Assembly: GCA_913061475.1 (NCBI GenBank)
Contig: CAJXUN010000027.1
Location: 1-61,674, forward strand
DNA: 61,674 nucleotides
Source: an uncultured Colwellia sp.
GTDB lineage: Bacteria > Pseudomonadota > Gammaproteobacteria > Enterobacterales > Alteromonadaceae
Reading direction: 5' to 3'
Shown here in pieces: positions 5,766 to 22,533 of this stretch. Every line of letters starts with the position of its first letter. Within the stretch, counting starts at the first letter, position 1. The notes beneath the pieces are model-generated. The model was not told the DNA's origin. It saw only the letters and a list, made by a program, of their open reading frames with translations, and made no database searches. The translations under genes were made by a program, and so were the position numbers.

Positions 5766-6779
5766 TTATATAATCAAGGGAATGAATGATTTATATGGGA
5801 TTAATGCTGAAATAGGGTCATGACTTTTCACGTATAAAGCAACTATATAAAGACATATACATAAAAGGTAAGATAGATAGACTTGGAACTCTCTTAAACG
5901 AATCCTATTAAATAGAATATCCCAACGAAACCATATTAAAGGTATTATAAAAGGTATTGAAATTCTTGCAAGACTTGAGTCTACAGATAGAGTGCCAAGA
6001 TATATAAATATCACCAATGACAGAATATAAGTTGACTCTTTCTGAGCAATGCTTTTGTATGATATGCAGTATAAAAGTACAAATAAAAAATACATTGTAT
6101 AACCAAAATGCCCACCATTATTATAAAATTTCAATAGAGGGTAAAAAGCTATTAAATTGTCATAAAAGAAAAATAAACAAAGAGAAACGAGTGCAATAAA
6201 TGCAAATAAGAGTTTTTTGACGGTTTTATTGTTTCCGAAAAATTTTAAATATATGAGTAAGAACACAAATAAAATTGACGATAAGTGACTTAGAATACTT
6301 AATAATGCAAATAGTAAAAATTGTATATTTTTATCTTTTTTCTGAAAATAAAAATACGTAACTATAGCAAATGCAATTGATAACTCTTGTCGAATAATTG
6401 AAAAAGATTCAATAAAAAACCAAGGAAGACAAATATAATTAAGCATTATAAAGGGTGATTTTTCAGAAATAGAGACAAAAAAAACACAACTTATCGTTAA
6501 TAAAGCATAAATAGCAAAAAACAAGATATAGCTATTAAAAAAGTGAGATACGCCAAGAATACTACACGTAACTGGCTCATAATAGCACTCTACATCAAGA
6601 TTAAAAATTTCAACATAACTCGTATAGTCATAACCTAAATTATGACGAAAAGCTAAAATAAAAAACAGTAAAAAAGACGTAAAAGCTATCCAGACAAAAC
6701 GTTCAGTGGCATTCTTTGAGAAACTTAAAAATAAGGTCAATAATGGAAAAGAAAACAGAAATAAAGATAACGTGTCCAT
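5766..6779 (-). CDS. wzy: O-antigen/exopolysaccharide polymerase, EpsG-like Wzy
   Basis: This is a predicted inner-membrane polymerase with about ten hydrophobic segments, which would join lipid-linked repeat units on the periplasmic side. The features used are the LGYDYTSY motif after the second membrane segment (near residue 50), FSIIRQELSIAFAI near residue 125 and LSILSHLSSILFVFLL near residue 160. This pattern occurs in EpsG-type polymerases rather than classical Wzy_C proteins. Its 1-base overlap with the upstream acyltransferase and the lack of any other polymerase candidate in the locus support the role. Polymerases diverge fast, so the assignment rests on topology, motif pattern and context. 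Confidence 0.75.
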   Translation of the reverse strand: MDTLSLFLFSFPLLTLFLSFSKNATERFVWIAFTSFLLFFILAFRHNLGYDYTSYVEIFNLDVECYYEPVTCSILGVSHFFNSYILFFAIYALLTISCVFFVSISEKSPFIMLNYICLPWFFIESFSIIRQELSIAFAIVTYFYFQKKDKNIQFLLFALLSILSHLSSILFVFLLIYLKFFGNNKTVKKLLFAFIALVSLCLFFFYDNLIAFYPLLKFYNNGGHFGYTMYFLFVLLYCISYKSIAQKESTYILSLVIFIYLGTLSVDSSLARISIPFIIPLIWFRWDILFNRIRLREFQVYLSYLLCICLYIVALYVKSHDPISALIPYKSFIPLII

Positions 6780-7348
6780 TAAATATTTCTTATAAATTTA
6801 ACGGGATTACCAGCCCATACTTGGTTTGAAGGAATTATACCTGAAACTACAGAACCGGCCCCAATTACACTGTTTTCACCTATTTCTGTTCCCTTTAATA
6901 TGATAGTTCCCGTTCCAATAAAAGCGCCTGACTTGATAAGTACAGGTTTTGATAGCCCCTTATCATTATCTTGTAATCGAGTAGTAGGATCTATTGAATG
7001 GAAATCAGTATCGTATATCTTACAATCGCCTCCAATCAAAACATTATCCATGATAGTAATATTTTTTATACAATATATTGCAGAGCTAGACATTCCAACA
7101 TTATCGCCAATAGTTAAACAGCCTTTTTCACAGACAACAATTGAAAAAAATGTATTTCCCCCTATAGGATTAGCAGCGTGTGATGAATTGATAATCACAT
7201 TACTCCCGTAATTAAATTCACCATAGCATCTAAAAAATAACTTCCCATTAACTTTTAGTCCTTTGAACTTAATCCCCATAAGAAAAAAAAACATATAATT
7301 GTAAATAAAACAATAACCAGAAACGATATATCTTATAAATTTCAACAC
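6779..7348 (-). CDS. Hexapeptide-repeat acyltransferase (left-handed beta-helix)
   Basis: This 189-residue protein has the repeating [LIV]GxxxxI pattern of left-handed beta-helix acyltransferases, for example IGDNVGMSSSAIYC, VLIGGDCKIYDTD, IGTGTIILKGTEIGENSVIG and AGSVVSG. The DTDFHSIDP segment supplies the likely catalytic His, as in the maltose/galactoside acetyltransferase group. It probably O- or N-acetylates a sugar of the repeat unit using acetyl-CoA. It overlaps the polymerase gene by one base. It is one of three such enzymes in the locus but is not closely similar to the pair at 10470-11894. The substrate is unknown. Confidence 0.85.
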   Translation of the reverse strand: MLKFIRYIVSGYCFIYNYMFFFLMGIKFKGLKVNGKLFFRCYGEFNYGSNVIINSSHAANPIGGNTFFSIVVCEKGCLTIGDNVGMSSSAIYCIKNITIMDNVLIGGDCKIYDTDFHSIDPTTRLQDNDKGLSKPVLIKSGAFIGTGTIILKGTEIGENSVIGAGSVVSGIIPSNQVWAGNPVKFIRNI

Positions 7349-10469: not shown

Positions 10470-11177
10470 TTAAACATCTAGTTTTAAAGCCGATATAATT
10501 TTTTCCGGGGATTCAAATAGACCACTGTTTTTCTTTATCCAAGCAAAATCTTTTGACCACCATCGAATTTCAAGTAGTTTCTTAACGGTTTCAGAATCAA
10601 ATCTAGCCTTTATTTTTTTAGCTGGTACACCAACATATATACCGTACTCTTCAACATCCTTTGTTACTATAGATCCTGCACCGATAATAGCGCCGTCACC
10701 AATTCTAACACCTTCAATAATTTTCACACCGTAACCAATCCATACATCATTGCCAATAACCACACTATGCCGAGTAGCATTATCCGCAAAAACAAATTCA
10801 TCAAACTTAGATTCTGTTACAAATGAAAAGCCTGCCTGGTTCGCTGTAGAGTAGAATGCGGGATGGGATGACACAAATTCATTTACAGCATGCCTCCCAT
10901 AAATAATTTCTGTAAAGGGGGCGATAGAGCAAAACCGGCCAATCTTTACTCCATTTAAAATAGAATTCCACCCAATGTATGTTCCTCCACCTATTGAAGA
11001 GCTTAATATTTTTGTATCATTATATATTTTAACATTATCTTCTAAACAGGTACTAGCGTTAACCTTGACTCTTCGGCCTATGATAACCCTCTTTCGCATT
11101 AAAATTTTTAAAATGCAATAAAGTTGATTAACCTTATTTTGAAATTTTTTACCGATATTCAAGCTAGCCTCCCACAA
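10470..11177 (-). CDS. Hexapeptide-repeat acyltransferase, CatB-like (copy 1 of a related pair)
   Basis: This is a left-handed beta-helix acyltransferase of the xenobiotic/CatB type, 235 residues in this frame. Hexapeptide turns such as IGGGTYIGWNSILNGVKIG, IGNDVWIGYGVKIIEGVRIG and IGAGSIVTKDVEEYGI are plain, and SSHPAFYS provides a likely catalytic His. The C-terminal VPAKKIKARF followed by a Trp-Trp motif is shared with the next gene upstream, suggesting tandem duplication followed by divergence. The first 26 residues lack repeats. A start at the internal Met of MRKRVIIG is possible. It probably acetylates a repeat-unit sugar. The specific position is unknown. Confidence 0.83.
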   Translation of the reverse strand: MWEASLNIGKKFQNKVNQLYCILKILMRKRVIIGRRVKVNASTCLEDNVKIYNDTKILSSSIGGGTYIGWNSILNGVKIGRFCSIAPFTEIIYGRHAVNEFVSSHPAFYSTANQAGFSFVTESKFDEFVFADNATRHSVVIGNDVWIGYGVKIIEGVRIGDGAIIGAGSIVTKDVEEYGIYVGVPAKKIKARFDSETVKKLLEIRWWSKDFAWIKKNSGLFESPEKIISALKLDV

Positions 11178-11186
11178 ATTCTGTGC

Positions 11187-11894
11187 TCAATAAACATGTA
11201 AGTTTTCTTTTATTTGATTTTCAATATCGATAAAAAACAACTGTTTATTCATTTTTAATTTTTCAACTGACCAGCACCACCATTGAAGCGACTCCAAATA
11301 TTCAATAGTATCGTCGTTAAAACGTTTTTTTAAAACTTTAGCTGGAGAACCAACTGCTATTGAGTATGGAGGTATATCTTTGGTGACAACACTACCAGCG
11401 CCAATAATCGAGCCTCTTCCAATCTGAACCCCAGAAAGAATTACAGAATTAGATCCTATCCAGACATCATCTTCAATTATAATATCGCCTTTAGTTACCA
11501 CATCATTTGTTATTTCAGTTCCAAATATATTTCGCCCCATAAAATATGATGATATTTTATCAATTCGGTGGCTAGAGTCTTGTATATTAACATTTTGACC
11601 TATTGAGCAAAAACTACCAACAGTAATTTTTGAAAGTATGGAGCTCAAAACAGTCCCTCCTCCAAATACCGACGTAAAACGACCAAATGAAACATTTCCA
11701 TAGCAAGAACATTTATAAAAACGGCACCCTTCACCAACTGTTTTAGCAGTCAAAATTGAGTCGACTATTGTAATAGGGTGTTTAACGTTAACGTCATTAA
11801 TATTTTCAATCCAAACATCAGACTTAACATCAGTATTAATTCCACGTCTTTTCAGTAAAAATATTTTAATAATTCTCTTGATGTATTTCACCAT
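11187..11894 (-). CDS. Hexapeptide-repeat acyltransferase, CatB-like (copy 2 of a related pair)
   Basis: This is a second CatB-like left-handed beta-helix acyltransferase of 235 residues, ending nine bases before the related gene downstream. Hexapeptide turns include VSFGRFTSVFGGG, IGQNVNIQDSSHRID, IEDDVWIGSNSVILSGVQIG and IGAGSVVTKDIPPYSI. His in DSSHRID is the likely catalytic residue. The tail SPAKVLKKRFNDDTIEYL followed by a Trp-Trp pair parallels the other copy. It is the first gene downstream of the 420-base gap and its terminator palindrome, so it may begin a new transcript that runs on to manC. The sugar acceptor is unknown. Confidence 0.85.
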   Translation of the reverse strand: MVKYIKRIIKIFLLKRRGINTDVKSDVWIENINDVNVKHPITIVDSILTAKTVGEGCRFYKCSCYGNVSFGRFTSVFGGGTVLSSILSKITVGSFCSIGQNVNIQDSSHRIDKISSYFMGRNIFGTEITNDVVTKGDIIIEDDVWIGSNSVILSGVQIGRGSIIGAGSVVTKDIPPYSIAVGSPAKVLKKRFNDDTIEYLESLQWWCWSVEKLKMNKQLFFIDIENQIKENLHVY

Positions 11895-12318: not shown

Positions 12319-13568
12319 AGCTTCATCATGAAGTTTCTTTCATTATTATAATTCTTATACATTAAGTAGTAGGCGCCTCCATAAACGACAAAGGATGAAA
12401 TAGACGAAAAAATTATCCCTAAATCAATATTATCAAATTGTACTGCGAAGAAATAGCCTACACTCGTAAGGATTAACAATGCTAATTGTATCAACAATAA
12501 ATACTTTTGTTTTTCATAAACGATAAACGTACTTGTTAATGGAATAATTGCTATTAAAACTGCGATATATGGAGACATTAATTTTAAAATATACGCGACA
12601 AATCTATACTTATCTGTAAAAAGCTGGACAATTACCCATTCAGATATCGTAAAAATAGTCATTACACATATTAATGCAAGCACGAGTAAACCAAGGCTAT
12701 ACCTAATAAAAACATTAAATGACGATTCATTATTTATGCGATTATTTCTTATTTTATGAAGAAACATTTGAGCAACTGTTGAAGTAATCACGGTTACAGG
12801 TGTAATAGCTATGCGGAATGCTACACCATAAAAAGCCGCCATATTTGCAGTAAAAAATTTATCCATAACTAAAACAGGTAGCCTCAATGAAAAAACTGCG
12901 ACTAGCTCAGCCGTCATCTTATATTTAGGCAAATTACTATATCTTTTTAATATTAAAAATGATAACCATGCTCCTTTCTTAAGTGAGTAAATAAATCTTA
13001 TATTATTTAAATATATAACGTAAACATACAAAGTAGCGCCGATTAACAGAGTCATAATTGCATTTACAGATATCAAAAATGTACTGGTACTCTGAGCAAA
13101 ATATTTTGCACCTAAAACCAAGAGAAGTGGCATAATTGGTGATGTTATCAAATCAAATATTGCAATATTTTTCAATTTACCATTGACAATAGCATAACTT
13201 CTCGAAAGCACTCTTAGCGCACCACCAAAGACTGCAAAACATAAAAAAATGGCATACTCAGGGGCTATGAAATATAAAGGGATAAGGCTCAATAACGAAA
13301 GAATAATAGCTACCACGATTGTTGCTGCAATAATATATGATTGTCTTCTTTCCTTTTTGTCTATAAAAAGTGCCTGTTCATAAAAGCCAGTACACATAAT
13401 GACAACAATTGAAACATACGATAAATAAATAATGTATTCACCAAGTATTTCAGGTTCATAGGCCCTAGCAATAATAGCAAAGAACAGTAATGATATTATT
13501 TGTACCCCTACATTACAAAACGTAATAATCGAGAAGTTTTTACTCTTCGCAATAAGCAATCGAAGCAT
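12315..13568 (-). CDS. wzx: Wzx-type O-antigen flippase
   Basis: This 417-residue polytopic inner-membrane protein has about twelve predicted hydrophobic segments and would flip the undecaprenyl-linked repeat unit to the periplasm. The N-terminal pattern ([20 protein letters not shown], then IARAYEPEILGEY) is typical of the polysaccharide transporter (PST)/MOP family: a first membrane helix followed by a short loop with LGEY. The PITPVTV-like segment and the C-terminal helices fit. The gene starts on the last base of the upstream stop codon (13568), so it is coupled to the KpsS/LipB-like gene. It is the only flippase candidate in the window. Confidence 0.88.
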   Translation of the reverse strand: MLRLLIAKSKNFSIITFCNVGVQIISLLFFAIIARAYEPEILGEYIIYLSYVSIVVIMCTGFYEQALFIDKKERRQSYIIAATIVVAIILSLLSLIPLYFIAPEYAIFLCFAVFGGALRVLSRSYAIVNGKLKNIAIFDLITSPIMPLLLVLGAKYFAQSTSTFLISVNAIMTLLIGATLYVYVIYLNNIRFIYSLKKGAWLSFLILKRYSNLPKYKMTAELVAVFSLRLPVLVMDKFFTANMAAFYGVAFRIAITPVTVITSTVAQMFLHKIRNNRINNESSFNVFIRYSLGLLVLALICVMTIFTISEWVIVQLFTDKYRFVAYILKLMSPYIAVLIAIIPLTSTFIVYEKQKYLLLIQLALLILTSVGYFFAVQFDNIDLGIIFSSISSFVVYGGAYYLMYKNYNNERNFMMKL

Positions 13569-15097
13569 TAATTTAAACCGAAAATTTTTATGATATTAGT
13601 TACTTCTGCTCTTAATTTTTTGTTGATAGACTTACGTTCATTTACTAAGCGTTCACTTTCCTTAATTAACCATGTTATTTGTACTTTTTCTCCGAAATGA
13701 TCAATAGCTTTAAGATACAGTGCTAGTGATATTTTATTATCTTTTTTTGGCGTACTAAAACTACTTATGACTTCAGGAAGCTGCTGAAAGCTATCGATTT
13801 TTGTGATCCCCTCGATTCGTTCAAAAAACGTACTCCCAAACATAATAGCTGGGACATTCAACATGGCAGCTTCAAAAGCAGCCGTTCCAGAAAGGGTAAT
13901 CACTCCCAATGAGTTAGTTATCCAAGGTTTGGGATCATTATAAAATGCAATATCTACAACTCTTACATTTGATAAGGTTTTTATTTTTTTATAAAAAGAT
14001 AAAGGCCTTTCACCCACCATTGCACCGTGCTCTTTTACGTATAGCTTACAGCCCAAAGGTAACGACTTTGATATAGCTTCAATTACAGAAAGTTCATTTG
14101 GATAAAATGGACTTTTATTCAAAGTTGTAGATTCAGGTATTAAATGCAAAGGGAAGTAAACATATTTTTCGCCTAAAACTGGCTTTTCAAATAATGAAAA
14201 AAACTTATTAAATATAAGTCTTTCCCTTAAAAACCATAAAAAGAAAAAACATAATGCCTTAAACGGATTGGCTAAAATAGGCGTTCTATGATATTTGAAC
14301 CAGTCAGGAATAGTTTTGACTATATATTTAAAACTATGCGCCAAACGTGATAAGTCTTTTTTTAATGGATTACCACTTATTTTACTTGTTTGATTATGCT
14401 TATAATCCGCATTCATTATTACCTGCTTACTTCTATATTTATCAACCTCCTTAATGTAAGTATCTTCAACTTGATTTTTATGCTCATTGCAAAAGTCGAC
14501 AAAATATTCATCTGTTTTTCTGCCTAAAGTATAGGTTGGCAAAACTATACTTTCATAACGCGAAAACTCCAACGAAACATAAGGAACACACATCTTTTGG
14601 CTAACTTGCAACAAAATACTCCGCCCAATTTCAGCTATATCTAAATCGCAAATTTTATAAAACTTTGTGCTTTTTAATAAATTTTCACAATATTTAAAAA
14701 GAAGCTGTACCCAATATAGTTTTTCACTTTCGGACATATGTCTAAAGTAGAAGCGATAGTGATATGGCGTAGTAAATAGTTGCGAAGATATTTGAAGAAG
14801 CGACAGCGGTATTTCTGCACAATATGTGCTTTCCACATATTCTAGGTACTCATAATCAATTAATTCATCTAAATTATTACGACCATTTATATACTCTAGA
14901 CAAATATTTTGAATAGAGTGAATCTTAATATCATTATTTCGCTCTACGAACTTAACGTAAGTATCATCCTCGCTTAATGCTTCAGACGAATGAATAAATA
15001 AAGCCTCAACTTCATACCCTAAAGAAGTAAGTTCTTCTTTTACAAAGTTCATTGGATATGAATATGTTTCTTTACATACTAATAGTATTTTTTTCAT
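13568..15097 (-). CDS. Capsule-synthesis (KpsS/LipB-like) family protein, likely glycosyltransferase
   Basis: This 509-residue soluble-looking protein starts with KKILLVCKETYSYPM, like a Rossmann strand and loop. Its second half contains KYVYFPLHLIPESTT, CKLYVKEHGAMVGERPLSFY and GVITLSGTAAFEAAMLNVPA near residues 330-450. That pattern (phosphate-binding GTAAFEA loop after a YVKEH strand) is shared with the Capsule_synth family, which includes KpsS/LipB and related Kdo or surface-sugar transferases. No membrane span is obvious apart from a hydrophobic patch at about 280-292. Its place between pseI and wzx makes it a candidate transferase for the nonulosonic acid made by the pse genes. That substrate is an inference. 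Confidence 0.65.
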   Translation of the reverse strand: MKKILLVCKETYSYPMNFVKEELTSLGYEVEALFIHSSEALSEDDTYVKFVERNNDIKIHSIQNICLEYINGRNNLDELIDYEYLEYVESTYCAEIPLSLLQISSQLFTTPYHYRFYFRHMSESEKLYWVQLLFKYCENLLKSTKFYKICDLDIAEIGRSILLQVSQKMCVPYVSLEFSRYESIVLPTYTLGRKTDEYFVDFCNEHKNQVEDTYIKEVDKYRSKQVIMNADYKHNQTSKISGNPLKKDLSRLAHSFKYIVKTIPDWFKYHRTPILANPFKALCFFFLWFLRERLIFNKFFSLFEKPVLGEKYVYFPLHLIPESTTLNKSPFYPNELSVIEAISKSLPLGCKLYVKEHGAMVGERPLSFYKKIKTLSNVRVVDIAFYNDPKPWITNSLGVITLSGTAAFEAAMLNVPAIMFGSTFFERIEGITKIDSFQQLPEVISSFSTPKKDNKISLALYLKAIDHFGEKVQITWLIKESERLVNERKSINKKLRAEVTNIIKIFGLN

Positions 15098-15166: not shown

Positions 15167-16231
15167 TTATACAGTTTCGTCCTGTATAAACTCGAAGCTC
15201 ATTGCTGTACCTTTCTTAAGAGGGCCAATAGCTTTCTTTCCTATAATTTGACTACTAAACTTGGGTGCTAAACCATAGCCTGGCCTTATACTTCTGATAT
15301 TTTCATGTGTAAATATTTCCCCTGCTTTAACATCTTTAACAACATACAAAGAACGACGGAAAACTAAGTTACCTTTTTCACTTTCTTTACGCTCATAATT
15401 AACTTTACCAAGCGCTTCCCAAGCGATTTTAGCATCTCGACATAGTTGAAATAACTCTGGCTCTTCTAGTGAAAAGCTATCATCAGGCCCACCACCTTTT
15501 CGATCTAGGGTCACATGTTTTTCAATTAAACAAGCACCAAGAACTACTGATGCTATTGCTGTAGTATTATCAATAGTATGATCTGATAAGCCAGTAAGCA
15601 CATCAAAACGTTGGGCCATATCAGGTATTGTCGCTAAGTTATAATCTCCTGAAGGGGCTGGGTAGCCACTTACACAATGTAGTACGATTAACTCTTTACA
15701 ACCTGCATTCTTTGCAGTTTCAACCGCTTCTTGTATCTCTTCTTTGTTCGCCATACCAGTAGATATAATTAAAGGTTTACCTGTTTTTGCAACATATTCT
15801 ATCAGTGGTAAGTCTATTGCTTCAAATGACGCTATTTTATAAGCTGGGGCTCCTAACTCTTCAAGCAGGTCAACTGCAGTAGTATCAAAAGGTGAACTAA
15901 ATATTGTTATGCCTAATTCTTTTGCTTTCGCAAAAAGTGGCTTATGCCAATCCCAAGGCATGTGTGCTTCAGTGTAAAGGTCGTACAATGTTCTTCCATC
16001 CCAGAGGCCGCCTTCAATTTTGAAATCTGGTTTGTCACAATCAATTGTCAACGTATCTTGGGTATAGGTTTGTAACTTAATTGCGTCCGCACCACAGCGT
16101 TTAGCCATTTCTAAAATTTCAAAGGCTCTATTTATGTCACCATTATGATTAGCTGATAATTCAGCGATAATATAAGGTGGAAAGTCAGGGCCTATCTTTC
16201 TATTATCTATTTCAACAAATTTAGTTTTCAT
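15167..16231 (-). CDS. pseI: Pseudaminic acid synthase
   Basis: This enzyme condenses the 2,4-di-N-acyl-6-deoxy-altrose released by PseG with phosphoenolpyruvate to form a pseudaminic acid. The NeuB-type TIM barrel runs over about residues 10-260, with ELSANHNGDINRAFEI, the HCVSGYPAP strand, GLSDHT and EKHVTLDRKGGGPDDSFS all present. The SAF (antifreeze-like) domain follows at about 285-350 (VKDVKAGEIFTHENIRSIRP). The PDDSFSLEEPE form favours PseI over NeuB or LegI. The frame extends to a TTG at 16240, but the ATG at 16231 (MKTKFVEID) is the natural start. It still overlaps the upstream gene by 11 bases. Confidence 0.94.
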   Translation of the reverse strand: MKTKFVEIDNRKIGPDFPPYIIAELSANHNGDINRAFEILEMAKRCGADAIKLQTYTQDTLTIDCDKPDFKIEGGLWDGRTLYDLYTEAHMPWDWHKPLFAKAKELGITIFSSPFDTTAVDLLEELGAPAYKIASFEAIDLPLIEYVAKTGKPLIISTGMANKEEIQEAVETAKNAGCKELIVLHCVSGYPAPSGDYNLATIPDMAQRFDVLTGLSDHTIDNTTAIASVVLGACLIEKHVTLDRKGGGPDDSFSLEEPELFQLCRDAKIAWEALGKVNYERKESEKGNLVFRRSLYVVKDVKAGEIFTHENIRSIRPGYGLAPKFSSQIIGKKAIGPLKKGTAMSFEFIQDETV

Positions 16232-16868
16232 CTTTTTCAACTCTCACATTATATCTTTGGCCGTTTTTATAAAAAAACGCAGGGAATCTATTTGGATCAC
16301 ATACTCTTAAAAGGTTAAATTGACTACCTAATGTTTTATCTAAATCCAACTCACTATCTTGCGGCACTCTTTTTCTATAGTAAGTCGACTTTAGGCTACT
16401 TTGAGGCATAGGCTTACAATTGTTATGATTTTCACAAGCCCATTCAATTAAATTTAGTTCTGCATCAAACAGTAATGTGTTTATTTCATCAAAAAGTTCT
16501 GTGCCATTTAAATTTATTTTTACTTTTTTCCAAATATCTCCAGTATCAACAGGCTCTTTTGCTTCCAATAATGAAAGAGTAATTACATCTTTACCAGATA
16601 TAACATCCCAAACATGAGGGCTCCAACCTCTTCCAACAGGTAAGTCGCTCGCATGTAATACTAAGGTATCTTTGAATAACAATTTAGTTTTATCTGTAAT
16701 AATTTGGCTGCAAGAAATTAAGAAAAGTATTTCTCCGCCTTGCACTATATCTTCAACTTTATTTAAAAGGTTGATTTGATATTTATCTTCATTATTTTCT
16801 TTCCATACTTTTAAAAGTGGAAAAATAGGATGATTTATATCACTACAGAGTAAAGTTATTGAAGTCAT
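16221..16868 (-). CDS. Formyltransferase-family protein in place of PseH
   Basis: This 215-residue protein resembles the catalytic domain of formyltetrahydrofolate-dependent formyltransferases (Fmt, VioF, ArnA N-domain). The core reads LHASDLPVGRGWSPHVW (His72), then VISGKDVITLS and VDTGDI (Asp108), corresponding to the His and Asp of the N-H-D triad. The Asn that normally stands two residues before the His is Val70 here. The gene sits between pseG and pseI and overlaps them by 1 and 11 bases. No GNAT-type pseH is present in the window. It may therefore acylate the 4-amino group made by PseC, giving a 7-N-formyl pseudaminic acid, or have lost formyl transfer for another role. Confidence 0.75.
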   Translation of the reverse strand: MTSITLLCSDINHPIFPLLKVWKENNEDKYQINLLNKVEDIVQGGEILFLISCSQIITDKTKLLFKDTLVLHASDLPVGRGWSPHVWDVISGKDVITLSLLEAKEPVDTGDIWKKVKINLNGTELFDEINTLLFDAELNLIEWACENHNNCKPMPQSSLKSTYYRKRVPQDSELDLDKTLGSQFNLLRVCDPNRFPAFFYKNGQRYNVRVEKDEN

Positions 16869-17929
16869 CAGCGCTCTAATTTCTCTATTTGTTCTACTAC
16901 GCGAAATGCGCCTAATCCGTCAGTAATCTTAAAATTTTTGATTCTGAAGTCTAACCAATTATCAGTAAGTGATTTAAAGGCTGCTTGAAAACCAGGCTCT
17001 ATATCTTCAATGGCGAGCTTTATAGCAGCCCCCGCATTAGCAATATTTTCTGCGATGTCTGCTTGATTGTCTGCTATCGGTATAATGATACTTGGTAATC
17101 CTAAACAAGCTCGCTCCCATGATGTACTTCCTGGGGCTCCAATAGCAACATCGTGTTCAAGCATTAAAGTCGCTACGTCATCTGAGAAGTCTATGTGTGT
17201 TATTGAAGGCATATTTATGCAAAATAATGACACACTTTCATAATGTGGAGCTCTAGGGCTCAATAAGACAGTAACGTTTATATTAGGTATTATTGATAAT
17301 GCCTGCAGTACGTTTAAAGTTACGTTAGGAGTATCTATTGCGCCCATAGTTACCAATACTTTACATTGAGTTGTTACACTCTTCTTTTGCTCTGCTTGTA
17401 TTCGTAACTCGCTATACTGCGGTGCCAATAAAGAATATTGACTGCCTGTAAGTATTCTAGTTTCTTTGTTAGCAGTAATATATTCTTGTTCTTGTCTGCC
17501 AAAAGTTTGATCAAGAATTAAGTTAGCGCAATGCCCTCTTACTAAATCATCGATTACAAAAATCTTACAACTTAAAGATTGGGAAACATATTTTTCCCAA
17601 TCTTTATTTATTCCATAGTGATCAACAATAACTAAGTCTGAACTCCCTGCTTTGTCAATAAAATCATTTGCATCATCCAGCCAAGAAGTTTGTAACCATG
17701 CTTTATAGTCATTATTGGCTTTTGGCGTTATAGCGTCGTTTGTTCTTTTAAGTTCTACAACTCGAATATTTTGTTGCTTAATGTAATCTACAAAATCACC
17801 TTTTTGTGGCCGTGTAAAAAAGGTTACGTTATGCCCGTTGTTTATTAGTATCTTTGCTAATACCAAACAACGCATAATATGCCCGCTACCTATATGTGCA
17901 GATGCATCGGACCTAAATAATATGTTCAT
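16868..17929 (-). CDS. pseG: UDP-2,4-di-N-acyl-2,4,6-trideoxy-altropyranose hydrolase
   Basis: This enzyme removes UDP from the diamino-trideoxy-altrose intermediate so that PseI can use the free sugar. It is a GT-B fold, MurG-like hydrolase. The N-terminal SDASAHIGSGHIMRCLVLA stretch contains His17, the catalytic position known in Campylobacter PseG. VIVDHYGINKDWE, VTMGAIDTPN and GAPGSTSWERACLGLPSI (about 265-285) form the nucleotide-binding domain. Its 353 residues are within the family range, slightly long. It shares one base with the formyltransferase-like gene. Confidence 0.93.
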   Translation of the reverse strand: MNILFRSDASAHIGSGHIMRCLVLAKILINNGHNVTFFTRPQKGDFVDYIKQQNIRVVELKRTNDAITPKANNDYKAWLQTSWLDDANDFIDKAGSSDLVIVDHYGINKDWEKYVSQSLSCKIFVIDDLVRGHCANLILDQTFGRQEQEYITANKETRILTGSQYSLLAPQYSELRIQAEQKKSVTTQCKVLVTMGAIDTPNVTLNVLQALSIIPNINVTVLLSPRAPHYESVSLFCINMPSITHIDFSDDVATLMLEHDVAIGAPGSTSWERACLGLPSIIIPIADNQADIAENIANAGAAIKLAIEDIEPGFQAAFKSLTDNWLDFRIKNFKITDGLGAFRVVEQIEKLER

Positions 17930-17960
17930 ACTGAGTAACTCGGCTGTCTAATAGATTTCA

Positions 17961-18743
17961 CTACCAACATGTCCACCCACCATTTACTTCAAGATTAGCC
18001 CCATTTATAAAACTAGATTCATCAGAAATTAGAAAAACTACAGGCCCCCCAATCTCATTTGATCGACCAACTCTTCCCATTGGGACCTTATTTGCTAACT
18101 TATGAATAAACTCGGGGTTTTTCTCTTGCACTTCTTTATTTGGGAATGGTCCTGGCGACAATGTGTTAAATCGGATACCTTCTGATGAGAACTCACATGC
18201 ACCATATTTAGACCATTGGTGTAGCGCTGCTTTCGATGCCCCATAAAAAGGAGGGTTAGCCAGCTTCTTTTCTTTGTATACTTTTAAGTCAGGGCTCACA
18301 AAACCATACATAGAAGATACATTTATAATCGATACTAATTCTTGGCGGGATGTTGCTTCACGAAAAAATGGTAATAAACTCTTGAATAATTTTTGAGCTG
18401 AAACAACTGTAATTTCATAACTAGAACGAAAGTCATCTTCATTAGATGTTTCTATAGAGCCAGGCTTCCCTGAATATGCATTATTAATTAAGCCATGAAA
18501 GCGATTTGTTTTTAGTTTTTTTATCCAAGATTCAATACTCTCATTATTTGTGATATCAAATGAAGCTTCAATAGCTTTAAAACCATTATTCTTTATATCA
18601 TTAACTAATTCTTGTGCATTTGTTTTTGAACGGGAATTTATAAATACAGTTGCCCCTTGCTTGGCTAGTGCGATAGCCATCTCTTTACCTAAATACCCCG
18701 TCGCGCCAGTGATAAGTATATTTTTATTTTTCAAATTGAACAT
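17961..18743 (-). CDS. Short-chain dehydrogenase/reductase (PtmA-like)
   Basis: This is a classical SDR of 260 residues. The cofactor motif GATGYLG is at 13-19, NNA near 87-89, the catalytic Ser in NVSSMYG (143-144), Tyr167 and Lys171 in YGASK, and the C-terminal VFLISDESSFINGANLEVNGG. It resembles PtmA/FlmA proteins found in nonulosonic acid and flagellin-glycosylation clusters. It lies 3 bases from the fused transferase/AKR gene and 31 from pseG, so it belongs to the module. It could reduce or epimerise a keto intermediate or act on an acyl substituent. The actual substrate is unknown. Confidence 0.85.
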   Translation of the reverse strand: MFNLKNKNILITGATGYLGKEMAIALAKQGATVFINSRSKTNAQELVNDIKNNGFKAIEASFDITNNESIESWIKKLKTNRFHGLINNAYSGKPGSIETSNEDDFRSSYEITVVSAQKLFKSLLPFFREATSRQELVSIINVSSMYGFVSPDLKVYKEKKLANPPFYGASKAALHQWSKYGACEFSSEGIRFNTLSPGPFPNKEVQEKNPEFIHKLANKVPMGRVGRSNEIGGPVVFLISDESSFINGANLEVNGGWTCW

Positions 18744-18746
18744 AAG

Positions 18747-20345
18747 TTATTTCCACTGACTTGGGTCTAAGGTGTTTTCATTTAACTTGGGAATAGTCGT
18801 TAAAACCCTTGAAAAATTCAATATTTGTCCTGAAAACACCTTACTTTCTAAGTTCGAATATAATTGTTCTAAAGTTTCAATCCCTACAACTACCCCGTCA
18901 ACCCACTCTTGTTGGGCGACAAAGCTCATAAGGATTTCATGTAGTGGCAAGTTAAATTCTTGCTCTAATCTTTTTATGAAATTAAATACATTTAATGTGT
19001 CACTTACATGTGCACGAGCCCATGCTGTTTGTCCTTTCGAAAATAAAAGGCCTTGTAAGTATATGCTTCTGCAATGGACTGTAAGTGTACGTTCTACTTT
19101 TACTTTCTTTATTGCTGCTATTGAATCTTCCCAACGCCAATCTAAGATATTATATGGTAATTGAATGTGCTCAACGTCTTCCAAATTTAAAGCCAAAGTT
19201 AGTTCTTTCGGGTTTTGTACAGAAATACCTATTTTCTTGATTACACCTTCAACTTTCAATTGGCACAAAGAATTCCAGACAATGCCATCTTGTAATTTTA
19301 GATATTCTGATCTGTGAAGTAATAAAACATCTAAACTTTTAGTGTTTAAGTTAAGTAACGATTTGTAAACTTTATTTCTTACAACTTCAGACAGGCATTG
19401 GCTTTCTGATTCTTCTATTGTTAAGTAAAGCTTAGTTGTAATTTGCGCTCTGCCTGCCCAACCTGTAGATATAAAATCACCAATAATTTTTTCAGAGTCA
19501 CCATACATACTCGCAGTATCAATATATGGAACTCTATTTTGTAAAGCTGCTAATAGTATTTTATTTGATTCTTGAGCGCGGGGCTTGCCAACTAGGTTAT
19601 TAATACCGTATTCTAATCCTAACTGAGCTGTCCCGAGAACAAACTTTTCAGGGATTGAGTGCAGCTCAAGTGAACGTGTTTTATCTATCAGTTGAGTCAA
19701 TTCTAAAAAGTTAATGTTAATTGGGTCATTAATATTACTAAATATATCTGTTATCGATATGTAATCATCTAAGTTGTCAACAGTACATTGAAGATGTCCT
19801 GTCTGAAGATACTTATATGTATCAAATGGAGTTTTTCCATATTTACGAATTATATATGGGGTAACATGCTCTTTATCATAAGAAGAAGTAGATAATCGAT
19901 TGGCTTCCCTTAAATGTGCAGCTTTTGTTATTTCCAAGCTCATTCCATAAGGCAACCCTGAATCTACGCCATTACAATACATATAATCGCTTTTAGAATC
20001 AATAAAACTACTAATAACTTCATCTATAAGATGGCCATCCGGACATACATTATCAGCAGTAAGTCTGACGACTGTCGCTTCATCACTTACTGCGTCTATA
20101 GCTTTAACTACTCGGTCAAGTGTATTATCTAATTCGCCACGAAAAACACTGAAGCCATACTGCATTATAATTGATGATAGTAAATCATCTGTTCTCTCAT
20201 TTGATGTCGCAATTATTACGGGTATACCCGTATTAGAAGCTCGCTTTGCCGCTAAAATTACAAGAGGCAACCCACATATAGGTAATAGTACTTTCCCTGG
20301 TAATCGTGAGGAGTTAGTACGAGCTTGTATTATAATGACTTTCAT
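18747..20345 (-). CDS. Fusion: SpsF-like cytidylyltransferase (PseF-type) with aldo/keto reductase
   Basis: The first ~225 residues are a nucleotidyltransferase of the CMP-sugar/SpsF type: IIIQARTNSSRLPGKVLLP at the start, then ATSNERTDD and RLTADNVCPDG (95-104). This domain would activate the acid as CMP-pseudaminic acid, since no separate PseF is present. From about residue 234 the protein is an aldo/keto reductase: VLGTAQLGLEYG, Asp276 and Tyr281 in DTASMYG, Lys305, and His344 in LLLHRSEYL complete the catalytic tetrad. Both halves look intact. The gene overlaps pseC by four bases. The reaction of the reductase half is not known. It may act with the adjacent SDR. Confidence 0.85.
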   Translation of the reverse strand: MKVIIIQARTNSSRLPGKVLLPICGLPLVILAAKRASNTGIPVIIATSNERTDDLLSSIIMQYGFSVFRGELDNTLDRVVKAIDAVSDEATVVRLTADNVCPDGHLIDEVISSFIDSKSDYMYCNGVDSGLPYGMSLEITKAAHLREANRLSTSSYDKEHVTPYIIRKYGKTPFDTYKYLQTGHLQCTVDNLDDYISITDIFSNINDPININFLELTQLIDKTRSLELHSIPEKFVLGTAQLGLEYGINNLVGKPRAQESNKILLAALQNRVPYIDTASMYGDSEKIIGDFISTGWAGRAQITTKLYLTIEESESQCLSEVVRNKVYKSLLNLNTKSLDVLLLHRSEYLKLQDGIVWNSLCQLKVEGVIKKIGISVQNPKELTLALNLEDVEHIQLPYNILDWRWEDSIAAIKKVKVERTLTVHCRSIYLQGLLFSKGQTAWARAHVSDTLNVFNFIKRLEQEFNLPLHEILMSFVAQQEWVDGVVVGIETLEQLYSNLESKVFSGQILNFSRVLTTIPKLNENTLDPSQWK

Positions 20346-21499
20346 AAAGTTTCTTTGATTACTTTAATAACTTGAAGTTGTTCCAATTCACTCATGGTGT
20401 GGTACAGTGGGATTGAAATTGCTTTTTGGTAATATTTCTCAGCTTCAGGAAAATCGCCAATATTAAAACCTAATTGCTTATAATAAGGTTGAATATGCAC
20501 TGGAATGTAGTGAAGATTCACTCCAATTTCTTTTCCTCTTAATTCATCAAAAACTTGTTTATGAGATTTCTGTATTTCATCTAAATTTAAACGAATAACA
20601 TATAAGTGTCGACCAGAGTATGAGTCTTCAATTTGATATGGCGTAACTAAAGGTAAACCTTTTAATAGTTCATCGTAGCGAGCAGCTAAGGCATTACGTT
20701 TCGCAACAAAATCATGTAATCGTGACATTTGGCTCACACCTAAAGCTGCTTGCATCTCTGTCATACGATAATTAAAACCTAGATCAACCTGCTCGTAATA
20801 CCAACCACCATGGCTATCATTTGCCATTAAAGAGCTGTCTCGAGTAATACCATGACTGCGAAGTAAGTCCAATTTAGCAGCTAATTCCTTACTATTAGTT
20901 GTAACCACACCACCTTCGGCTGTAGTGACAATTTTCACTGGGTGAAAACTAAAAACAGTAATATCACTATATTCACAGTTCCCTATAGGGTTGCCTTTAT
21001 ACTTGCCGCCAATAGCATGTGAAGCGTCTTCAATAATAGCAAAGCCATACTCTTGACCTAATGTATGGATTTTTTCCATCTCACAGGGTTGGCCACATAA
21101 ATGAACAGGTATAACTACTTTGGGCAGTGCTAAGTTATTTTCTTTTGCGTGCTGTAATTTTTTCTTTAAATTTTCTGCACTCAGGTTATAAGTTAAAGGG
21201 TCAATATCAACAAAATCGACATCAGCTCCACAATATAAAGCACAATTTGCAGAAGCAACAAAAGTTATAGGGGTTGTCCAAACAACATCCCCTTTACCAA
21301 CACCTAATGCTAAACAAGCTATATGCAATGCTGATGTTGCTGAGTTCACAGCGAGTGCATGTTCAGCATCTACGGCAAACTTTATAGATTGTTCAAATAA
21401 AGGCACTTGTGGCCCTTGTGTTAAAAAATCTGATTTTAATACATCAACAACTGCATCAATGTCTTGTTGAGTTATTTCTTGCTTACCGTATGGGATCAT
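20342..21499 (-). CDS. pseC: UDP-4-amino-4,6-dideoxy-N-acetyl-altrosamine transaminase
   Basis: This PLP enzyme of the DegT/DnrJ/EryC1 family aminates the 4-keto product of PseB. The start IPYGKQEITQQDIDAV and FLTQGPQVPLFEQ are typical of PseC. TTPITFVASANCALYCGA, IIEDASHAIGG (Asp158 region) and the PLP lysine Lys189 in SFHPVKIVTTAEGG follow. HLYVIRL and the NLHYIPVHIQPYY segment complete the fold. At 385 residues it is the normal length. It lies 20 bases from pseB and overlaps the fused transferase gene, so the module is tightly packed. Confidence 0.95.
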   Translation of the reverse strand: MIPYGKQEITQQDIDAVVDVLKSDFLTQGPQVPLFEQSIKFAVDAEHALAVNSATSALHIACLALGVGKGDVVWTTPITFVASANCALYCGADVDFVDIDPLTYNLSAENLKKKLQHAKENNLALPKVVIPVHLCGQPCEMEKIHTLGQEYGFAIIEDASHAIGGKYKGNPIGNCEYSDITVFSFHPVKIVTTAEGGVVTTNSKELAAKLDLLRSHGITRDSSLMANDSHGGWYYEQVDLGFNYRMTEMQAALGVSQMSRLHDFVAKRNALAARYDELLKGLPLVTPYQIEDSYSGRHLYVIRLNLDEIQKSHKQVFDELRGKEIGVNLHYIPVHIQPYYKQLGFNIGDFPEAEKYYQKAISIPLYHTMSELEQLQVIKVIKETL

Positions 21500-21519
21500 A
21501 AAATTATTCTTACTGAGAA

Positions 21520-22533
21520 TTAAACTGAAAAACTTGCGTCTACATGCTCAACAATTAAGCTTCTTAATGACTCAACTGTTTCCCATTCTGTATTCGTACC
21601 TGAGTTATATTTAAAACCAAACGGTACTTTTACTGCTTTATGGTGTTTTATATATTCTGCTTCTGTATAAGTAAATGAAACAGAAGGTAATATAGCGTAA
21701 TACTTACCTAAATCTATCGTATTCAAAGAATCAGTATCTGTAATCATTTCTTCATGAAGCTTTTCACCAGGACGAATACCTACAACTCTTGTATCACAGT
21801 CTGGTGCTATAGCTGTCGCTATATCGGTAATTTTATAAGATGGGATTTTAGGGACAAATATTTCGCCACCAATGTGATGGCCAATAGCATACATCACCAT
21901 ATTTACACCATCCTGAAGAGAGATATTAAAACGGGTCATTTCTTCATGGGTAATTGGTAACATCCCTTCTTTCTTTTTATCAATAAAAAATGGAATAACC
22001 GAACCACGTGAGCCCATCACATTGCCGTACCGCACAACACTAAATTTAATATCTTTCGATCCACGGATATTATTTGCAGCAGCGAATAATTTATCTGAAG
22101 CTAATTTTGTAGCGCCATATAAATTAATTGGTGCACAAGCTTTATCGGTAGATAAAGCGACAACATCTTTAACACCACAAGCGAGGGCAGCATGAATTAC
22201 ATTTTCAGCACCATCAATATTAGTACGAATACATTCTGTCGGGTTATATTCAGCCGTATCTACTTGCTTTATAGCCGCCGCATGAATTATGACATCAACG
22301 CCTTCACATGCCTGTGTCATTCTATCTTTATCACGAACATCACCAATAAAAAAGCGAAGTTGAGGGAAGTCATACGCAGGATACTTCTGCTTAATAACAG
22401 ATTGTTTTAGCTCGTCTCGTGAATAGATAATGATTTTTTTAACATCTGGATACCTATCTAAAATAGTTTCAATAAATTTCTTACCAAATGAGCCCGTACC
22501 ACCTGTGATTAAAACAACTTTATTATTTAACAT
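21520..22533 (-). CDS. pseB: UDP-N-acetylglucosamine 4,6-dehydratase (inverting)
   Basis: This is the first enzyme of pseudaminic acid biosynthesis. It dehydrates UDP-GlcNAc and inverts C5. It is an extended SDR with GGTGSFG at residues 11-17, the YSRDELKQ segment, IHAAAIKQVDTAEYNP, STDKA at 128-132 (catalytic Asp/Lys) and Tyr139/Lys143 in YGATK. The PFF.....G.LPITHEEMTRF block is characteristic of the PseB/FlaA1 group. Its 337 residues match the family. A 144-base gap with no clear signal separates it from wecA upstream. Confidence 0.95.
   Translation of the reverse strand: MLNNKVVLITGGTGSFGKKFIETILDRYPDVKKIIIYSRDELKQSVIKQKYPAYDFPQLRFFIGDVRDKDRMTQACEGVDVIIHAAAIKQVDTAEYNPTECIRTNIDGAENVIHAALACGVKDVVALSTDKACAPINLYGATKLASDKLFAAANNIRGSKDIKFSVVRYGNVMGSRGSVIPFFIDKKKEGMLPITHEEMTRFNISLQDGVNMVMYAIGHHIGGEIFVPKIPSYKITDIATAIAPDCDTRVVGIRPGEKLHEEMITDTDSLNTIDLGKYYAILPSVSFTYTEAEYIKHHKAVKVPFGFKYNSGTNTEWETVESLRSLIVEHVDASFSV

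Follow-up and report, generated by a model that had tools for sequence, protein, structure and literature searches.

A pse operon without pseH or an ordinary pseF

The stretch of DNA analysed here (the window) comprises 61,674 nucleotides of contig CAJXUN010000027.1 from an uncultured Colwellia sp. (assembly GCA_913061475.1), and it contains a run of seven genes for the biosynthesis of a pseudaminic acid (Pse), which occupy the minus strand from position 22533 down to 15167. Their order is PseB-PseC-fusion-SDR-PseG-FT-PseI, where the fusion joins a cytidylyltransferase and an aldo/keto reductase (AKR), SDR is a short-chain dehydrogenase/reductase, and FT is a formyltransferase-like protein, called FT-A together with its relatives.

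21520..22533, minus strand: pseB, UDP-GlcNAc 4,6-dehydratase (inverting); TIGR03589, 538.9 bits against a cut-off of 407.75
20342..21499, minus strand: pseC, aminotransferase producing the 4-amine; TIGR03588, 565.3 bits against a cut-off of 423.5
18747..20345, minus strand: EpaA-like fusion of 532 amino acids (aa) in the place of pseF; Pfam CTP_transf_3 (3-179) and Aldo_ket_red (236-501)
17961..18743, minus strand: EpaB-like SDR, 260 aa; Pfam adh_short_C2, 2.8e-39
16868..17929, minus strand: pseG, UDP-sugar hydrolase; TIGR03590, 277.7 bits against a cut-off of 153.55
16221..16868, minus strand: FT-A, predicted N-formyltransferase in the place of pseH, 215 aa; sub-threshold Pfam match, AlphaFold2 with Foldseek, family alignment
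15167..16240, minus strand: pseI, pseudaminic acid synthase; TIGR03586, 515.2 bits against a cut-off of 340.25

PseB, PseC, PseG and PseI were judged by NCBIfam equivalog cut-offs, and each exceeds its own. A preliminary description of this DNA had listed the same four genes, together with a formyltransferase-like gene that fills the slot between pseG and pseI and overlaps both, and the coordinates (16221-16868) and predicted fold of FT-A agree with that account. FT-A and pseG share one base (TGATG), the 3' end of FT-A overlaps the start of pseI (listed as TTG, with an alternative ATG nine bases further inside), and the ATG of the fusion sits within the pseC stop codon (ATGA). The description was silent on both genes of the pseC-pseG interval (17961-20345) and on the missing pseF.

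No GNAT-type pseH lies in the window, as had been described, and a search of the whole 4.28 Mb genome with TIGR03585 gives no PseH over the cut-off (best match 28.7 against 93.1 bits). The ten weak GNAT matches obtained at E<=1 are all on contigs other than the window's, and weak matches appear in all 14 control genomes too. A PseH hidden elsewhere in the genome was rejected because the search returns weak GNAT matches only, and a second pse operon because the genome has one PseG. The window also encodes three hexapeptide acyltransferases (6779-7348, 10470-11177 and 11187-11894), which were rejected as PseH substitutes because all fall below every NCBIfam cut-off shown; their scores of 46.9, 62.4 and 62.1 bits compare with a NeuD cut-off of 160.8 bits.

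The operon contains no ordinary PseF-type cytidylyltransferase either, and a CTP_transf_3 domain occurs just once on the contig, as the SpsF-like part of the fusion. Contig 38 of the same genome (L247:7296-12500) carries a legionaminic-like set consisting of a second NeuB with hydrolase- and cytidylyltransferase-like genes, which adjoins genes that by eye resemble fliD and flagellin. Because of this cytidylyltransferase-like gene, the fusion is the only possible CMP-sugar synthetase of the operon, not of the cell.

The FT-A family at the pseH position

The Pfam model Formyl_trans_N (PF00551) matches FT-A below its gathering threshold (21.7 against 26.1 bits) and over profile positions 81-173 only. 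The AlphaFold2 model of FT-A (mean predicted local distance difference test score 96.0, built with 49 sequences) resembles formyltransferases along its length; the best PDB match in Foldseek is 1zgh (E 5.0e-16, template modelling score 0.79), followed by the transformylase domain of ArnA. FT-A is thus predicted to have the fold of enzymes dependent on N10-formyltetrahydrofolate (N10-formyl-THF). At the sequence level, it is 96% identical to its counterpart in Colwellia polaris.

To describe the family we used loci from named genomes, namely the best 80 of 290 related stretches, picked by likeness to FT-A, many of which end at contig edges. Judged by their titles they come from Gamma-, Beta- and Alphaproteobacteria, Bacteroidota, Verrucomicrobiota, Myxococcota and others. 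All 80 have pseG or pseI beside FT-A; PseI was found in 78 (over 300 bits), PseG in 77 (over 100 bits), PseC in 70 and PseB in 61, and both loci without a full PseI still have PseG and a truncated PseI. Where all three genes could be scored, PseG directly precedes and PseI directly follows the formyltransferase in 69 of 75 loci. A PseH score of at least 40 bits is reached in one of the 80 (L141, where it is fused to the formyltransferase), and the PseH model recovers PseH at no less than 83 bits in nine of nine loci outside the set used for model building.

The relationship between the two acyltransferases was also counted in 147 genomes of the window's family, which contain 105 pseG places. 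Within 8 kb of pseG we found PseH at 57 places, FT-A at 10, neither at 38 and both at none (Fisher 2.3e-4, ignoring kinship). Most PseH rows in this count are under the curated cut-off, which is exceeded in 21 of the 147 genomes, and 20 of 23 formyltransferase rows were entered, G060, G084 and G057:C18 being left out as long frames of other formyltransferases. In a wider draw of 395 family genomes FT-A was detected in 21 at E<=1e-20, one of these being a weak match (G941) to a 310-aa frame with no pse neighbours in view.

FT-A is therefore a common stand-in for PseH and not new in kind. Since none of the 105 pseG places has both FT-A and PseH, the slot seems to serve two chemistries. The predicted fold, the pseG-pseI position and the exclusion of pseH all support the earlier proposal that a 7-N-formyl group takes the place of the acetyl group added by PseH, and we consider it likely that FT-A acts at N7.

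A second pse-linked formyltransferase family, FT-B, is close to 1zgh (E 2.9e-64) and may bear on the other amino group. Among 99 loci, a PIG-L deacetylase gene is present in 11 of the 12 with FT-B and in one of the 87 without it (Fisher 1.1e-12, ignoring kinship and repeats); the lone exception with FT-B, L040, stops at a contig edge. These loci include the same genome twice in at least two cases (L038/L111, L039/L167) as well as near-identical pairs (L041/L042), the FT-B loci were gathered via an FT-A query, and FT-A in this count includes the A' subfamily of L040-L045. FT-B co-occurs with PseH in three loci (L047, L048 and L251). The most economical explanation is that PIG-L would free the 5-amine for FT-B and that FT-A, replacing PseH, would serve the other amine, which suggests one formyltransferase per amino group. 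There is no sign that the 5-N-acetyl group is removed in FT-A loci, PIG-L being absent from all 83 loci with FT-A only. Because the window has FT-A and no PIG-L, a 5-N-acetyl, 7-N-formyl sugar is predicted.

Several of the FT-B loci have further features. L043 (971-10320) and also L040, L041, L042, L044 and L045 contain FT-A' and FT-B in tandem, an AKR, an SpsF-like cytidylyltransferase and a class III aminotransferase, with PIG-L in all except the contig-cut L040, and their product may have an additional amino group and be formylated twice. L251:6463-15303 (G814) combines an EpaA-EpaB-like pair, FT-B, PIG-L and PseH in one pse cluster. PDB entry 1zgh was deposited as a methionyl-tRNA formyltransferase; as pse-linked FT-B is its nearest relative, the deposited name may be wrong.

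An EpaA-EpaB-like pair in the place of pseF

Two blocks of the window align with the C. polaris locus (L110). One, of 4391 columns at 83.1%, reaches window position 20478, inside the 3' end of pseC; the other, of 2663 columns at 92.1%, starts at the first base of pseG (17929). The stretch between these flanks holds an ordinary pseF in C. polaris (415 bits, 228 aa) and the fusion and the SDR in the window, and tblastn against L110 found neither the fusion nor the SDR. This reads as a replacement of pseF by the pair in an otherwise shared operon, and since pseF is replaced, the fusion presumably supplies the CMP transfer.

The fusion is rare. Among 369 genomes of the class, full-length fusions were found in the window and G316; the 395 family genomes yielded, at E<=1e-50, those of the window and G814, and two of 299 genomes from Moraxellaceae (the family of Psychrobacter phenylpyruvicus) have one as well (45-46% identity). 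The fusion is also present in two plasmid records, at 36-38%. It is absent from all 80 named FT-A loci, and the window is alone among the genomes examined in joining FT-A to an EpaA-EpaB-like pair.

The available part of the report on Acinetobacter baumannii prophages describes EpaA (542 aa; CTP_transf_3 and Aldo_ket_red) and EpaB (262 aa; adh_short_C2), which convert Pse5Ac7Ac to its 8-epimer, 8ePse5Ac7Ac, in the capsule, as demonstrated by complementation and nuclear magnetic resonance (PMC12053666). The window pair has the same gene order and domains and a similar size (532 and 260 aa), and differs from what is described there in that it lies within a pse operon and replaces pseF, while the A. 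baumannii pair is encoded in prophages. SDR enzymes carry the motifs TGxxxGxG and Tyr-x-x-x-Lys, and AKR enzymes a catalytic tetrad of Asp, Tyr, Lys and His; by eye the window proteins retain all of these. Our searches of phages, plasmids and IMG/VR did not find the A. baumannii epaA-epaB genes. Matches in phages and plasmids were partial or of 25-38%, and scanning viral sequences with the window fusion, a two-fusion alignment or a two-SDR alignment yielded nothing or just two distant cytidylyltransferase stretches. Two IMG/VR viral contigs (L223:1431-5660 and L224:832-5747) have PseI-like and SpsF-like genes in proximity.

By analogy with EpaA-EpaB, and in keeping with the epimer suggested for Vibrio sp. 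B9-25K2 (see below), epimerisation at C8 by the window pair appears fairly probable. The preliminary description had inferred plain 5-N-acetyl-7-N-formyl-pseudaminic acid (Pse5Ac7Fo) as the product; its 7-formyl part is supported, and its non-epimer part is put in doubt by the presence of this pair instead of pseF, which makes the 8-epimer (8ePse5Ac7Fo) the likelier product. Plain Pse5Ac7Fo would result if FT-A formylated N7 and the fusion supplied only CMP, with the AKR and SDR inactive or modifying the sugar otherwise. That sugar is known from Pseudoalteromonas distincta, to go by reference titles, and FT-A is independent of EpaA-EpaB, as 58 of the 80 FT-A loci have an ordinary pseF. We nevertheless regard it as unlikely here, because AKR and SDR accompany the fusion as a pair in G316, G715, G702, G814 and the two plasmid records, and because a pair of the same architecture is the one described as epimerising C8.

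The pair may instead have a carbon other than C8 as its target, such as C4 or C7, and yield a different isomer. The comparison involves distant homologs, EpaA-like fusions being mutually 38-46% identical, and the authors of a study on Vibrio sp. B9-25K2 leave the position undecided in the part of their text available (PMC7371886). This text describes a cluster of PseB, PseC, an SpsF-like cytidylyltransferase with aldo/keto reductase, a dehydrogenase and PseG, and a PseAc2 whose tandem mass spectra differ from those of Moritella, for which an epimer or other N-acetyl positions are suggested; in contrast to the window, the cluster has a PseH domain and the compound is di-acetylated. G316, G715 and G702 have the order PseB-PseC-fusion-SDR-PseG-GNAT-PseI; the slot of pseH is thus occupied by a GNAT, which in G702 is not a PseH by the PseH model. 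As the sole tested pair of this architecture that we encountered works at C8 (PMC12053666), action at another carbon seems very unlikely.

The predicted sugar and its relation to known systems

Taking both replacements together, we favour, with modest confidence, CMP-8ePse5Ac7Fo as the product of the operon, destined for a surface polysaccharide. Family assignments predict that PseB and PseC would produce UDP-4-amino-4,6-dideoxy-L-AltNAc, whose 4-amine (N7 of the finished sugar) would be formylated by FT-A where PseH elsewhere uses acetyl-CoA. PseG would then strip UDP, PseI would condense the sugar with phosphoenolpyruvate to Pse5Ac7Fo, and the cytidylyltransferase half of the fusion would add CMP in the stead of PseF. 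Before or after this CMP transfer, the AKR half and the SDR would oxidise and re-reduce C8, as proposed on the model of EpaA-EpaB.

Several observations weigh against this pathway. The canonical catalytic motif of formyltransferases is Asn-x-His followed by Asp, and Asn-x-His is present in all four canonical formyltransferase paralogs of the same genome and in ArnA. In FT-A the residue two places ahead of the catalytic His is never Asn: across the 81 sequences examined (the window's and those of the 80 named loci), it is Val in 77, Ile in three and Leu in one. One 405-aa protein, L141:8983-10200, combines FT-A with an intact PseH GNAT domain, and 38 of the 105 pseG places have neither PseH nor FT-A within 8 kb; both facts indicate that other acylations exist. 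The genome itself has weak GNATs and the three hexapeptide acyltransferases of the window. In addition, the link of the window pair to EpaA-EpaB is one of architecture, and FT-A is so distantly related to PseJ, the known Pse formyltransferase discussed below, that the activity of PseJ is not transferable by itself. It is chiefly the missing active-site Asn that keeps our confidence from being higher.

With the Asn missing, and with Cys53 (79 of 81) and Ser52 (81 of 81) conserved by the presumed site, FT-A could move another acyl group or act elsewhere, the 4-amine then being acetylated by a GNAT or hexapeptide enzyme coded elsewhere; the FT-A-PseH fusion and the hexapeptide transferases would also fit such a scheme. 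Set against it are His72 and Asp108, kept in 81 of 81 sequences at the canonical 36-residue spacing, the N10-formyl-THF enzyme fold, the exclusion of PseH, and the scores of the hexapeptide proteins, far below the NeuD cut-off. We therefore judge this scheme quite unlikely. As for the Asn itself, either it is dispensable, or another residue (perhaps Cys53) substitutes for it, or the donor is not formyl. Six FT-B proteins examined and 1zgh also lack this Asn. Its absence makes the FT-A family suited to testing directly which residues a formyltransferase active site requires.

More tentatively, these results may be joined in one scheme, in which the operon makes 5-N-acetyl-7-N-formyl-8-epipseudaminic acid by two cassette swaps (FT-A for PseH, EpaA-EpaB for PseF) within a wider two-site code: Asn-less FT-A would set N7 in the stead of PseH, Asn-less FT-B would set N5 once PIG-L had removed the 5-N-acetyl group, and clusters with both would yield a 5,7-di-N-formyl sugar. 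From two differences in gene content, the structure of a surface sugar can be predicted in concrete terms, and near-identical operons appear to exchange the acyl group and the C8 configuration as separate cassettes. If confirmed, the FT-A/pseH and FT-B/PIG-L rules would make it possible to predict from genome sequence, position by position, where Pse carries N-formyl groups.

The operon lies within a polysaccharide locus that encodes a Glycos_transf_4 family protein, an SLBB-domain export protein, an EpsG-family protein and glycosyltransferases, along with TviB-like (over cut-off) and TviC-like (under cut-off) UDP-HexNAcA enzymes, a GDP-mannose dehydratase and a GDP-fucose synthase that both exceed their cut-offs, and an amidotransferase of the asparagine-synthase family. 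Given this setting, the sugar probably belongs to a capsule or O-antigen. One further gene follows the operon.

13568..15097, minus strand: 509-aa protein without Pfam or NCBIfam match, directly after pseI; weak relatives near pseI

Its relatives near pseI are in L110, L111 (27% over 150 aa) and L241 (38% over 154 aa), all of them weak; our guess is that it is a candidate glycosyltransferase using the nonulosonic acid.

A limited literature search, which is no proof of absence, found no account of FT-A or 8ePse5Ac7Fo. Formylated Pse is represented in the PDB by the formyltransferase PseJ (6ci2, 6ci4, 6ci5, 6edk), which is said, by Reimer et al. in 2018, to have a role in the 7-formamido-pseudaminic acid pathway of Anoxybacillus. 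We predict the same step for FT-A, whose profile matches PseJ structures with E 9.6e-7 and 1.1e-6; the two proteins are distant, in that 1zgh (6.3e-21) and ArnA match the FT-A profile better, the PseJ match is confined to profile positions 5-140, and there is an extra C-terminal part in FT-A. Reference titles also report Pse5Ac7Fo, which the preliminary description had called a sugar of some Pseudomonas O-antigens, in the polysaccharide of P. distincta KMM 638. As in the prediction made here, this is a pseudaminic acid with a 7-formamido group, from the polysaccharide of a marine gammaproteobacterium; by its title the sugar is not the 8-epimer, and the comparison is one of sugars, not of genes. 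Together, PseJ and the P. distincta sugar indicate that formylated pseudaminic acid is an already known kind. A likeness in gene content is also seen in the flagellin glycosylation islands of Geobacillus, in which, according to the available part of the report, pse genes occur without pseH and in some cases with formyltransferase genes (PMC5109656), as in the window.

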